53,633 nt of DNA, taken from positions 1 through 53,633 of the forward strand of contig JAPLDF010000029.1 in NCBI GenBank assembly GCA_026391835.1, in the 5' to 3' direction. Positions 5,853 to 48,879 of the stretch are shown here, in pieces (the stretch's first letter is position 1; the number at the start of each line of letters is the position of its first letter). The notes below the pieces were generated by a model. It did no database searches, was not told the DNA's origin, and saw only the letters and a program-made list of their open reading frames with translations. Origin of the DNA: Bacteroidota bacterium. GTDB lineage: Bacteria > Bacteroidota > Bacteroidia > Bacteroidales > FEN-979. The translations under genes were made by a program, and so were the position numbers.

Positions 5853-7379
5853 TTAATGTTTAAAATGTCGTATCCCGGTAATTACCATGGATATATTGTG
5901 TTCGTTGCAGTAATTCACTGAATCAATGTCCCGGATGGAACCCCCGGGCTGTATTACTGCAGTAACGCCCGCCTCACCGGCAATTTCAACGCAATCGGCA
6001 AACGGAAAAAAGGCATCCGATGCCATCACCGAACCATTGGTGTCGAACCCAAAGGAGTGTGCCTTGTTTATTGCCTGCCTCAACGCATCCACACGGGAGG
6101 TCTGCCCCATGCCACACCCGATTAGCTGGTTGTTCTTAATCAGAACTATCGTATTCGATTTCAGATGTTTAACTATCCTGTTGGCAAATACCAGCGCGTC
6201 AGTTTCCTCCTGCGAAGGTCGCTTATTGGTAACGTATTGAAAATCTATTTGTTGTTCCGAGGTCACATCTTTATCCTGCTCCAGAACTCCGTTCAGGATA
6301 GACTTAAATTGCAATTGCGGCAACTCAAACGAATTTTTTTGCAAAATTATTCTATTTTTCTTTGATTTTAAGAGATTAAGCGCATCATTTTCATACCCGT
6401 CGGCAATTAATATTTCAAAAAACAATTTATTGAGCTCTTCGGCCAGGTCCGGTTGTATTGTTCCGTTGGCAATGATGATGCCGCCATATGCCGAAACGGG
6501 GTCACATGCAAGGGCGTCAAGATAGGCATCTTTCATTGAGTTGCGGCTGGAAACACCACAAGGATTTGTATGTTTAATAATTGCAACCGTCGGAACAGAA
6601 AATTCCCCGATCAGGTTTATTGCGGCATCAACATCAACCAGGTTGTTGTATGACAGTTCCTTCCCATGGAGCTGGGTAAAAACATCTGCAAGATTTCCAT
6701 AAAAAGTGCTTTTCTGATGCGGATTTTCACCGTAACGCATGGGCAAGGCCGTCAGAATACTCTGTTTGAAGGCCGGAATATTTGCCTGCCGGTTGAAATA
6801 CCTGAAAATCTGGGTATCATAATGGGACGAAATGTTAAACGCAAGGCCGGCAAACTGCCGGCGGTCGCTCCGGTTTGTATAGCCACTGTTCTTTGCCAGG
6901 ACATCCAGGAATGCCTGGTAGTCACCGGAGGATGCCACGACCATTACGTGGGCATAATTTTTAGCTGCTGCACGTATCAGGGAGATACCGCCAATGTCTA
7001 TTTTTTCAATGATTTCCTCTTCATTGCCTGTTGCTGCCACTGTTTTTTCAAACGGGTAGAGATCAACAACAACAAGGTCGACAGAGGGGATCTCATATTT
7101 TTCAACATCGTCGACATCAGAAAACTTGTCGCGGCGCCAAAGAATTCCTCCAAAGATTTTAGGGTGCAATGTTTTTACACGTCCCCCCAGGATGGAGGGA
7201 TACGATGTGATGGATTCGATGGAAACAGCATGTATTCCCCTGCTCATCAGGAAATCGAAGGTGCCGCCGGTCGAAATGATTTGAATGCCGTAAGATACGA
7301 GTTTGCGTGCCAGATCCTCTATTCCTTCCTTGGAATATACGGAGATCAGGGCTGTTTTAATCTTTATCTGATCGTTCAT
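5853..7379 (-). CDS. purH: Bifunctional AICAR transformylase / IMP cyclohydrolase
   Basis: PurH performs the last two steps of purine synthesis: formylation of AICAR with 10-formyl-THF, then closure to IMP. I take the ATG at 7377-7379 as start, giving 508 residues, the normal size; a 30-codon upstream extension is unlike the family. The cyclohydrolase domain (about 1-195) has GGRVKTLHPKI at 65-75 and SLIRAAAKNY at 133-142. The transformylase domain (about 200-508) has RYGENPHQ at 215-222 and the catalytic KHTNPCG at 269-275. It heads the operon with mreBCD, an arrangement common in Bacteroidota. Confidence 0.96.
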   Translation of the reverse strand: MNDQIKIKTALISVYSKEGIEDLARKLVSYGIQIISTGGTFDFLMSRGIHAVSIESITSYPSILGGRVKTLHPKIFGGILWRRDKFSDVDDVEKYEIPSVDLVVVDLYPFEKTVAATGNEEEIIEKIDIGGISLIRAAAKNYAHVMVVASSGDYQAFLDVLAKNSGYTNRSDRRQFAGLAFNISSHYDTQIFRYFNRQANIPAFKQSILTALPMRYGENPHQKSTFYGNLADVFTQLHGKELSYNNLVDVDAAINLIGEFSVPTVAIIKHTNPCGVSSRNSMKDAYLDALACDPVSAYGGIIIANGTIQPDLAEELNKLFFEILIADGYENDALNLLKSKKNRIILQKNSFELPQLQFKSILNGVLEQDKDVTSEQQIDFQYVTNKRPSQEETDALVFANRIVKHLKSNTIVLIKNNQLIGCGMGQTSRVDALRQAINKAHSFGFDTNGSVMASDAFFPFADCVEIAGEAGVTAVIQPGGSIRDIDSVNYCNEHNISMVITGIRHFKH

Positions 7380-43068: not shown

Positions 43069-43318
43069 TCACCTCAACCCCCTGCCCCTTCTCCTTCAGG
43101 AGAAGGGGAGGAGGGAACTTGATGACCCGGAAGAGACTTTTCAACGGGCACATTCGTTGCAGAATTCGACAGGTTAGGGATCACAGTCATCCGTTTCACA
43201 AACAAACAAATCCTTGTAGGTATTGATAAAATACTTATGTAATAATTGCTTTTATAATGACACAAAGCCGCCCATCCTCCCCTTCTCCTTCAGGAGAAGG
43301 GGCCGGGGGATGAGGTGC
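43069..43318. mobile_element. Non-autonomous (MITE-like) copy of the DUF559 element
   Basis: A 250-bp unit bounded by 47-bp inverted repeats (43069-43115 and 43272-43318, 41 of 47 positions alike), each with a perfect 11-bp palindrome (43085-43108, 43279-43302). The interior (43116-43271) is close to the DUF559 gene of the full unit at 48364-48879, in the opposite orientation, with two deletions. One, of 63 bp, joins CTTGA repeats; the other, of 202 bp, joins the imperfect repeat GCGG(C/A)ATTCGAC. No intact frame remains. The unit starts at the base after the methyltransferase stop and ends at the base before the hemW stop. No target duplication is seen. Confidence 0.85.
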
Positions 43319-44464
43319 TTATAAAAACAATTCCCCCGCAATCCGGTCGGCGAACAACTTCCCCTCATCCGTCAGAAAATAGACGCCTGAATTTTCTGTC
43401 AGCCACCCCTGCTGAACAAAAGCGGCAGCCCGTTTCCCTATCAATTCGTAATTCGTAATTCGTAATTCGTAATTTATTTTCCCCAGGTTGCAACCCCACA
43501 TCGTTCGCAGCGAAGTCATCACATATTCATTGTACTTCTGGATATCGGTAAGGACCTCCTCTTCGTAAATGCACTCGCCTTTATCAATGCCACCGATATA
43601 TTTAGAAAGGCTGGAAACATTCCATCGCCTGGAACTGCCGTTGTAGCTGTGTGCCGAAGGGCCGAGCCCAAGGTAGGGAACACCGTTCCAGTAGTTGGTG
43701 TTGTGAATTGCATGCCACCCGGGTTTGCAGAAATTTGAGATCTCATACTGCTGAAACCCGTTTTGCCTGGCTTGTTCCATGAGGATCCTGAACTGTTCCA
43801 CCTGCGCTTCATCGCTCACAGGGGCGGATTTTTTCCTGCTGATCATCCATGCCAGCGGGGTGTTTGATTCTACGGTAAGGGCATAGGCCGAGATGTGCGG
43901 CACACCCAGTGAAAATGCGGTTTCGAGGTTCCTGAGCCACCGGCCGTTCCCGGCTCCCGGGATGCCATAGATCAGGTCGATGCTGATATTTTCGTATCCC
44001 GCCTCCTGCAGCCGTTTCACGGCGGCAACCGCCTGGCCGGCCGAATGCGACCGGTTCAGATACAGGAGATCTTCATCATCAAACGACTGAACCCCCAGGC
44101 TGAACCTGTTGAACCATGTTTTCTTTAATTCCGCCACATACGCCTCCGTCACATCATCCGGATTCAGCTCCAGCGTAATCTCCATCCTATCCCGGGAAAC
44201 GCTTCCCCCCTCTCCTTCAGGAGAGGGGTCAGGGGGTGAGGTAAAAACCTCCTGCAACTCTCCCGGCCTGTAAACCGACGGCGTTCCCCCGCCGAAATAG
44301 ATCGTATTCACCGGCTCTCCGCCCAGGTATTCACGGGTTGACACGATCTCCTTTTTCAAAGCCGCCAGGAACGGCTCCTTAAGCTTCTGCGAAGCCAGCG
44401 AAAAGAAGTTACAATAGTGGCATTTGCGCCTGCAAAAAGGGATATGGATATAGATTCCGGCCAA
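43319..44464 (-). CDS. hemW: HemW-type radical SAM protein (coproporphyrinogen III oxidase-like)
   Basis: HemW is a heme chaperone of the radical SAM superfamily, formerly annotated as oxygen-independent coproporphyrinogen oxidase. The 381-residue protein has the cluster motif C11-x3-C15-x2-C18 (PFCRRKCHYCNF), the FGGGTPS motif at 57-63 and the HemW C-terminal domain. Two in-frame repeat insertions are visible: residues about 75-88 (PPDPSPEGEGG) come from a palindromic repeat, and a NYELRITNYEL stretch near residue 335 comes from four 7-bp units. It converges with the methyltransferase across the element at 43069-43318 and lies 4 bases downstream of the histidine kinase gene. Confidence 0.9.
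   Translation of the reverse strand: MAGIYIHIPFCRRKCHYCNFFSLASQKLKEPFLAALKKEIVSTREYLGGEPVNTIYFGGGTPSVYRPGELQEVFTSPPDPSPEGEGGSVSRDRMEITLELNPDDVTEAYVAELKKTWFNRFSLGVQSFDDEDLLYLNRSHSAGQAVAAVKRLQEAGYENISIDLIYGIPGAGNGRWLRNLETAFSLGVPHISAYALTVESNTPLAWMISRKKSAPVSDEAQVEQFRILMEQARQNGFQQYEISNFCKPGWHAIHNTNYWNGVPYLGLGPSAHSYNGSSRRWNVSSLSKYIGGIDKGECIYEEEVLTDIQKYNEYVMTSLRTMWGCNLGKINYELRITNYELIGKRAAAFVQQGWLTENSGVYFLTDEGKLFADRIAGELFL
43443..43470. repeat. 7-bp tandem repeat in hemW
   Basis: Four exact units of AATTCGT, followed by a decayed fifth, lie within hemW and encode a repeated N-Y-E-L-R-I-T heptad. The words are the reverse complement style of the short repeats common in intergenic DNA of this group. 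Confidence 0.75.
44200..44242. repeat. Solitary palindromic repeat inserted in frame in hemW
   Basis: The core CCCCTCTCCT-TC-AGGAGAGGGG (44207-44228) and its flank ending GGGGGTGAGGT match the inverted repeats of the DUF559 elements. It adds about 14 codons to hemW without shifting the frame, in a loop between the FGGGTPS motif and the next conserved strand. Confidence 0.8.
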
Positions 44465-46025: not shown

Positions 46026-46194
46026 TGACCCCACCCCGGCCCTCCCCTTGGAGGGGAGGGGGATGTCCTGCCAAATCAGATTCCATAATTGTCAGTTAAT
46101 CATCGGATTAATTACATTAACTTTAAAAAGTTTAAAGATAATCCAAGCCCCAAACGGCTCCCTCCCCTCCAAGGGGAGGGCCGGGGAGAGGTCA
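46026..46194. mobile_element. Second-family inverted-repeat element, no ORF
   Basis: Two copies of about 40 bp (46026-46063 and 46155-46194) are inverted with respect to each other and agree at nearly all positions. Each starts TGACC and contains the palindrome CCCTCCCCT-TGG-AGGGGAGGG. About 90 bp of AT-rich DNA without a gene lies between. The design (inverted pair of GC-rich palindromes) is that of the DUF559 elements but the palindrome sequence differs. It lies in the divergent gap between the histidine kinase and S9 peptidase genes. Confidence 0.7.
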
Positions 46195-48363: not shown

Positions 48364-48410
48364 GCACCTCATCCCCCTGCCCCTTCTCCTCAAGGAGAAG
48401 GGGAGGATGG
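48364..48410. repeat. Left terminal inverted repeat of the DUF559 element
   Basis: 47 bp from GCACCTCAT to AGGATGG with an 11-bp palindrome (48380-48390 with 48393-48403, loop CA). It matches the right repeat at 45 of 47 positions; only the two loop bases differ. The DUF559 stop codon (TGA on the minus strand, 48390-48392) is made by the loop. Confidence 0.9.
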
Positions 48411-48809
48411 GCGGCTTTGGGTTGTTATAAAAGCAATTATTTCATGAAGTACTTTATCAATACTTTTAAGGATTTGTTCATTTGTGAAACGGATGACGGT
48501 GATCCCTAACCTGTCGAATTCCGCAGTGCGGTTTTCATCGTGTTCCTTTACTGTCGGCTTGTAATGAATTCCACCGTCAACCTCAATGATGAGGCGCTTT
48601 TCATGACAATAAAAATCAGCAATAAAATAATGGATGGGATGTTGCCTGCGAAATTTCAGGCCATTCAACTTACGGTTTTTCAATTCGGACCATAATTTTT
48701 TCTCAGCCTCTGTCGTCGAATGCCGCAACGAATGTGCCTGTTGAAAAGTCTCTTCCGGGGCATCAAGGTGCAGAAGAAATTCCCTGGTCTTTCCCAAATA
48801 CGCCATCAT
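48390..48809 (-). CDS. DUF559 endonuclease-domain protein (PD-(D/E)XK, Vsr-like)
   Basis: The 139-residue protein is a DUF559 member, a family placed with the PD-(D/E)XK nucleases near the Vsr mismatch endonuclease. The N-terminal part has the family pattern AHSLRHSTTEAEKKLWSELK; the active-site candidates are D65 (IADFYC), E76 and D78 (IIEVDGG) and H82. The last residues (RPSSPSP) are encoded by the inverted repeat and the stop by its hairpin loop. ATG codons at 48809 and 48806 are both possible starts. Activity and target are unknown; a role in moving its own repeat is an inference. Confidence 0.88.
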   Translation of the reverse strand: MMAYLGKTREFLLHLDAPEETFQQAHSLRHSTTEAEKKLWSELKNRKLNGLKFRRQHPIHYFIADFYCHEKRLIIEVDGGIHYKPTVKEHDENRTAEFDRLGITVIRFTNEQILKSIDKVLHEIIAFITTQSRPSSPSP

Positions 48810-48832
48810 TCAAAAATTAACCTTTCAAGTTC

Positions 48833-48879
48833 CATCCTCCCCTTCTCCTCCAGGAGAAGGGGCAGGGGGATGAGGTGCC
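48833..48879. repeat. Right terminal inverted repeat of the DUF559 element
   Basis: 47 bp, inverse of the left repeat, with palindrome arms 48840-48850 and 48853-48863 around a CC loop. It lies 24 bases upstream of the DUF559 start codon, so it forms part of the gene's promoter or leader region. Confidence 0.9.

Follow-up and report, generated by a model that had tools for sequence, protein, structure and literature searches.

A DUF559 nuclease gene and the triplex-motif hairpins at its two ends appear to constitute an autonomous mobile element in the window (the whole 53,633-nucleotide stretch of Bacteroidota DNA analyzed here), a reading to which we assign a probability of roughly 60%. Mobility of the unit is well supported by the comparison of related sequences; that the DUF559 protein mobilizes it, we infer. 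A wider proposal, which we hold at even odds, is that DUF559 proteins, including YcjD of E. coli, are the missing mobilizers of the BoxC/PIT/TM repeats. The units would then be a new class of bacterial transposable element whose nuclease recognizes its ends as intrastrand triplexes and moves both units and gene-less copies to new sites, in-frame positions within essential genes among them. The finding ties a common uncharacterized nuclease family, also present in E. coli K-12, to widespread triplex-forming repeats. How repeats of the BoxC kind spread had been an open question, and the DUF559 units suggest a carrier. If the reading is correct, it would describe a kind of mobile element whose enzyme differs from every known transposase, give intrastrand DNA triplexes a biological role, and account for in-frame nuclease domains as well as proline/glycine-rich inserts in LeuS, MetH, and RecB-like proteins.

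The terminal inverted repeats named in the original prediction match in inverted orientation at 45 of 47 positions (Table 1). This value is also the best gapless 47-mer score of the window arms, for which 100 dinucleotide-block shuffles gave a maximum of 28 and a mean of 25. The right arm starts at 48832; the register 48833–48879 matches at only 18 of 47 positions. As claimed, the enclosed gene matches the DUF559 family model, and its stop codon (TGA, minus strand) is made of the loop bases of the left hairpin (48390–48392), with the last codons and the stop lying inside that hairpin. The derivatives described with the unit proved genuine: the deleted copy is identical to it at 233 of 259 comparable positions, the window hairpin recurs at 23 sites in the genome (at most three mismatches) compared with one for a reversed control pattern, and a truncated end is visible by eye immediately to the left of the unit. 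No target duplication is visible at the unit, in agreement with the prediction, and the exact junction is unreadable owing to sequence divergence of these intergenic flanks in the nearest relative. The open reading frame holding the solitary end is one that we take to be HemW-like; at about the place of that end, the nearby relative described below (L110) has a longer, REP-rich insert.

Table 1. Coordinates of the DUF559 unit and related features in the window.
Feature	Position	Strand	Remark
Gene for the predicted DUF559 / PD-(D/E)XK nuclease, 139 aa	48390–48809	−	PF04480, E = 1.3e-36
Left terminal repeat	48364–48410		Putative third strand 48367–48376, 3-base gap, hairpin 48380–48403
Right terminal repeat	48832–48878		Hairpin 48839–48862, 3-base gap, putative third strand 48866–48875
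Internally deleted unit copy, both ends kept	43070–43322		Intact unit at the orthologous place in L110
Solitary end, hairpin 44206–44229	44199–44245		In frame within ORF 43319–44464 (−)
Inverted arm pair, second stem type CCCTCCCC	46026–46194		99 bp between arms

The MAG of an uncultured Bacteroidales (CAIVAT010000057.1, L110) is syntenic with positions 35.7–49.8 kb of the window in blocks of 76–81% identity. The two genes that bracket the window unit are separated in L110 by 53 bp in which blastn finds no match to the repeat, and L110 carries an intact unit at the place of the window's deleted copy. A check proposed with the prediction, whether relatives have the unit beyond this locus, was therefore answered positively, L110 having it elsewhere and being empty here. 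After the two lineages separated, therefore, either the window lineage gained a unit at this site or L110 lost one. The window's own copies share more positions with one another (233/259) than either does with the copy in L110 (182/259 and 189/259); these distances favor a gain by the window lineage, with the nearby copy as the source, unless gene conversion homogenized the copies. An autonomous element is expected to leave both empty and occupied orthologous sites, and both were found among relatives; together with scattered gene-less pairs and single ends, they agree with the predicted picture of a mobile unit plus derivatives. A second candidate empty site (L002/L121) was ambiguous because of paralogous transporters, and the species pairs L207/L211 and L210/L213 were not readable as exact empty sites. 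At about positions 6395–6520 of L110 and in the flanks of L003, half-units spanning hairpin loop to tag are tandemly repeated outside the end, which may reflect cutting near the loop.

The genome to which the window belongs has five DUF559 matches: the window unit, L002, L003, L004, and L005. L003 lies between hairpins of the window type but contains two stops; L002 has a different stem type and a truncated right end; L004 and L005 (weak DUF559 match) lack such flanks. Among hairpin pairs less than 1 kb apart in this genome, those of 459 and 515 bp enclose DUF559 and one of 194 bp encloses a remnant, and neither is found within a 927-bp pair that spans 43279–44206 of the window. Several of the solitary copies form inverted pairs separated by a few bases, resembling REPINs. 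In the gene-less pairs at L007, L009, L010, and L017, one stem is that of the window and the other is of a CTCTCC type similar to the L002 stem.

It is quite unlikely, in our estimate, that the repeats owe their movement to a RAYT, some other transposase, or slippage in host replication, with DUF559 carried along as cargo or as a Vsr-like gene for repair or restriction. Such an arrangement could draw on the 10 Y1 transposase (PF01797) matches of the window's own genome and on repeat-rich genomes without a DUF559 match. It could also draw on VsrA, a Caulobacter DUF559 protein reported to cause an SOS response in cells without a cytosine methyltransferase (PMC12907096); the family can therefore be active in vivo and can have other roles. 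However, the window stem is absent from all 10 Y1 loci of the genome, so RAYT was rejected as the mobilizer there, and the stems follow the nuclease, as described below. No gene other than DUF559 was seen between paired ends in the units inspected by eye, and the published accounts of CGTC and TM repeats report no transposase beside them (PMC3733652, PMC4666352). Eight of the 10 Y1 loci have other hairpins and two contig-end loci have none; L102–L107 carry hairpins of their own, such as CCGTGGGTGAAACCCACGG.

Beyond this genome, matches to PF04480 were found in 138 of the 247 genomes surveyed from the window's phylum and, within the class of G302 (Sideroxydans), presumably Gammaproteobacteria, in 47 of 143, many of these latter matches being weak. 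A sequence-blind flank test (300 bp per side, a perfect stem of at least 7, and a shared 6-mer arm) found hairpins with a shared stem on both flanks of 76 of 166 DUF559 loci, these being high-scoring matches rather than a random draw and counted without regard to kinship. By set, the counts were 32/55 for Bacteroidota, 10/20 for in-frame domains in long open frames, 16/20 for the G302-class set plus one Anaerolineales (20 hand-picked regions for the class, mostly high-scoring and away from contig ends), and 18/71 for a named set selected using the window's own clade. At the same loci, the remaining ORFs of at least 300 nt gave 4/587, and shifted windows gave 2/1599. Of 176 loci, ten with insufficient flanking sequence were excluded, and L120 and the truncated L033, L037, and L042 were left out; loci fetched twice (L050–L069, L198) were counted once, and L038, which equals L141, was counted twice and was negative both times. 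An earlier test with other settings gave 19/75 DUF559 loci of the named set versus 4/859. The expectation that DUF559 genes of relatives would be flanked by repeats therefore holds for many, also in other groups, but far from all.

By eye, records of Sphingomonas, Azospirillum lipoferum, Pseudanabaena, and Deinococcus proteolyticus had such flanks to the left and right of DUF559, and those of Sinorhizobium, Azospirillum brasilense, Neisseria gonorrhoeae, and E. coli had one-sided or degenerate ones. Under a strict triplex criterion, four of these eight records had no such flank, two had one side, and two had both. Some loci of the named set that lack such ends (e.g., Pedobacter) have long syntenic flanks and look vertically held. 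Strong DUF559 matches occurred in 47 of 59 genomes with the hairpin pattern versus 55 of 188 without it (Fisher p = 9e-12, kinship ignored). The hairpin-bearing genomes without a strong match (12 of 59) include G086 (32 hairpins), G001 (12), and G055 (9), and two of three such genomes inspected, G001 and G055, have repeat families of 104–189 bp without DUF559. Such ends in these families are found at L347, L350 (overlapping L353), and L356 of G055 and at L348, L354, L357, and L360 of G001. At L286, the hairpins around DUF559 lie, by eye, inside a larger inverted repeat. A search of viral contigs by one narrow peptide pattern yielded a single partial relative.

The genomes with several elements contributed 53 elements, of which 37 were bounded by a hairpin at either end. 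A 7-mer stem was common to both ends of the same element in 28 of these 37, compared with 21 of 80 for ends of different elements in the same genome (p = 7e-7). Protein identity was also correlated with stem similarity (Mantel r = 0.30 across 121 loci; maximum of 0.10 in 2,000 permutations), a value that includes kinship. By these comparisons, stems track the element more closely than the genome.

Each end consists of a hairpin with a pyrimidine and a purine arm. Outward from the purine arm, usually after a gap of 3 bases, that arm is repeated in mirror image, with either A or T facing each A. The mirror copy could form the third strand of a putative purine-motif intrastrand triplex. In the window, the purine arm GGAGAAGGGG is followed by CAG and then the tag GGGGATGAGG, and all four window hairpins tested reached a third-strand score of 1.0 at a gap of 3. 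Among 254 hairpins with a pure-pyrimidine arm flanking DUF559 (a few counted twice, and from loci that are not independent), 215 scored at least 0.85 on the better side. At the same threshold, swapped tags gave a mean of 79.5 (maximum of 98 in 200), letter shuffling gave a mean of 10.3 (maximum of 19 in 100), and the poorer side of the same hairpins gave 2. The third-strand fit follows the stem sequence, with 39 of the 254 off the rule. Triplex units occur at 1.82 per kb less than 400 bp from DUF559 versus 0.062 per kb more than 1 kb away at the same 94 loci, a ratio of about 29-fold. Across 184 DUF559 loci, 70 had no triplex unit within 350 bp and 47 were one-sided. That the hairpins are terminators or common 3′-end repeats found beside many small genes is very improbable: they are GC-rich and often intergenic, as would suit that reading, but other ORFs of the same loci are flanked in so few cases, the third strand covaries with the stem, and copies occur mid-gene.

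The third strand points outward at 23 loci, inward at 27, and is mixed at 17, and these two layouts need explaining. Inward third strands characterize 9 of 14 two-sided loci of the G302-class set and both E. coli BoxC pairs inspected, so pair and unit may share a per-lineage layout. A rule for tag direction based on C/T content proved noisy and was replaced by the third-strand test.

This form of end has been published for the BoxC/PIT/TM_ECO repeats, which combine a hairpin with a third strand 3 bases on (consensus CCCTCNCCCN3-6GGGNGAGGGN3GGGNGAGGG; Holder 2015, PMC4666352). That paper describes single copies and inverted pairs, among them A/B pairs in E. coli, at strain-variable loci, and states that no mobility genes were found around the repeats. 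It also reports triplex folding of TM_ECO in vitro and an in vivo footprint that did not support a stable triplex. Whereas those sequences were published as repeats only, here they are the ends of DUF559-bearing units, and the stem varies with the nuclease. The element had been called undescribed, which stands for the link between repeat and nuclease, new as far as we searched the openly licensed literature, but not for the repeat form, already in print (PMC4666352), or for the DUF559 family, already known. Among the titles and abstract openings listed from that literature, neither DUF559 nor ycjD was found linked to triplex repeats.

A structure predicted for the window DUF559 protein (mean pLDDT, 84.6) was used for fold searches, which returned 3hrl (E = 6e-8) and the homing endonuclease I-Bth0305I (3r3p, 2e-4); Vsr (1vsr) ranked 12th (E = 0.17), after PvuRts1I and mitoribosome chains. 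Profile searches gave 3hrl at 5e-33 and 3r3p at 4.4e-6. Residues E36, D65, E76, D78, H82, and R94 are among the invariant columns of 16 homologues. The Pfam model, the fold, and the conserved acidic residues bear out the PD-(D/E)XK Vsr-like class put forward in the original prediction, and within that superfamily the protein is a predicted member of the Vsr / EDxHD homing-endonuclease branch. YcjD had earlier been assigned to PD-(D/E)XK and linked to Vsr (PMC1189080).

DUF559 units also occur in frame inside genes. We fetched 20 DUF559 domains in long open frames and scanned seven with NCBIfam and Pfam. The host genes encode leucyl-tRNA synthetase (leuS; twice, at two different positions), methionine synthase MetH (metH), fused isobutyryl-CoA mutase IcmF (icmF), HsdR (hsdR), an Eco57I-type methylase (L059), and a RecB-like helicase that falls below the cut-off of its family, with UvrD domains above theirs. 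By eye, the in-frame hairpins translate as linkers rich in proline, glycine, serine, and charged residues. At the leuS site of one genus, G080 and G138 are occupied, G291 and G277 are empty, and G214 has a single hairpin. The RecB-like gene was found in 117 of 121 genomes of one genus; the best 30 of the 117 loci were fetched, and 27 were placed on a host-gene tree. These 27 comprise six alleles with the unit, one with a decayed unit, one with a pair, five scars, and fourteen empty alleles, the last two labels being assigned by judgement such that some "empty" alleles (e.g., G557) may be scars. The allele states are interleaved on the host-gene tree.

Taken alone, the RecB-like and leuS alleles could reflect one old insertion followed by many losses. 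The unit type of the RecB-like site, with its GYMTGGN leader, is also found in leuS of other genera of the same family, however, and its presence in both genes requires transfer between genes. For DUF559 in the RecB-like units, dN/dS was 0.08–0.32 in 12 of 15 pairs, with dS often above 1. These low ratios give weak support because the decayed G555 copy, compared with G218 (0.059/0.467), yields a ratio similar to those of intact pairs. In that copy (L312), conserved residues of the in-frame DUF559 are changed and the host frame is still open.

Units inside genes are informative about a further reading, in which older, independent triplex repeats are the target and a homing-type DUF559 endonuclease gene has its product cut them and is inserted into or between them by repair. 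The closest solved structure with a described function is indeed that of the homing endonuclease I-Bth0305I, repeat populations exist without DUF559, and at L285, L330, and L334 the DUF559 gene sits between two complete pairs in direct orientation. Yet two-ended units lie inside protein genes, and at the corresponding positions of related genes both the repeat and the DUF559 gene are missing; at the 48.36 kb site, L110 has no blastn match to the repeat. Homing would moreover require flank homology, but the host genes differ, and the stems track the element over the genome. We consider this reading unlikely. The fold is common to the window protein, I-Bth0305I, and Vsr; the DUF559 units differ from both in being bounded by repeats and in occupying unrelated sites, with no intron or intein seen. 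In place of the one homologous insertion site of a homing gene, we found unrelated host genes and an intergenic site, and within one host gene the same insertion site recurs.

For the preferred reading, an autonomous element with its own nuclease, the following course can be envisaged. The nuclease would recognize the ends belonging to its own element, possibly in triplex form on DNA made single-stranded during replication or repair, and would cut or nick at the ends and at a target. Host replication or repair would then join the released or copied segment, so that the ends alone could spread as miniature elements, and gene-less pairs would be moved in trans. Ends poor in stops and a length divisible by three may let a unit survive inside essential genes.

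In mode, the system is best read as REP/RAYT-like, with an unrelated enzyme and unrelated ends. Like REP/RAYT systems (REPtrons, IS200/IS605-like), it has one small gene between palindromic repeats, gene-less inverted pairs, tagged hairpins, and no visible target duplication. Unlike them, it encodes a predicted PD-(D/E)XK enzyme (PF04480), with no Y1 HUH transposase (PF01797) inside the unit; its tag is the purine-arm mirror GGGGATGAGG, a putative triplex third strand, rather than GTAG; and DUF559 units also lie in frame inside genes. Palindromic repeats inside protein genes are also seen in the Rickettsia palindromic elements (RPE), and we know of no nuclease that accompanies these. RPEs inside ORFs are mentioned in Di Nocera 2013 (PMC3733652), which also describes CGTC-tagged REPs from several phyla, with CCTC variant tags and no dedicated transposase found. 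Those REPs have a CGTC tag, stems of 8–9 bp starting with AT, and mostly CCA tails (PMC3733652), and the window repeat CACCTCATCCCCCTG-CCCCTTCTCC departs from this description of the family.

In E. coli, the BoxC pair between hrpB and mrcB is present in MG1655, absent from strains 63-2 and 144, and single in ETEC1717; it was ruled out as a clean target site because the junction bases differ. The ycjD gene of MG1655 (1351407–1351760) is annotated as DUF559. Copy 9 of Holder 2015 (1351204–1351239), as given in Table 1 of that paper (PMC4666352), lies between ycjD and fabI, where we saw the motif. Another study reports ycjD where eefRABCD is absent (PMC12817139). A sapF-ycjD-fabI query was matched at no less than 80% coverage in 3,330 of 5,426 E. 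coli genomes.
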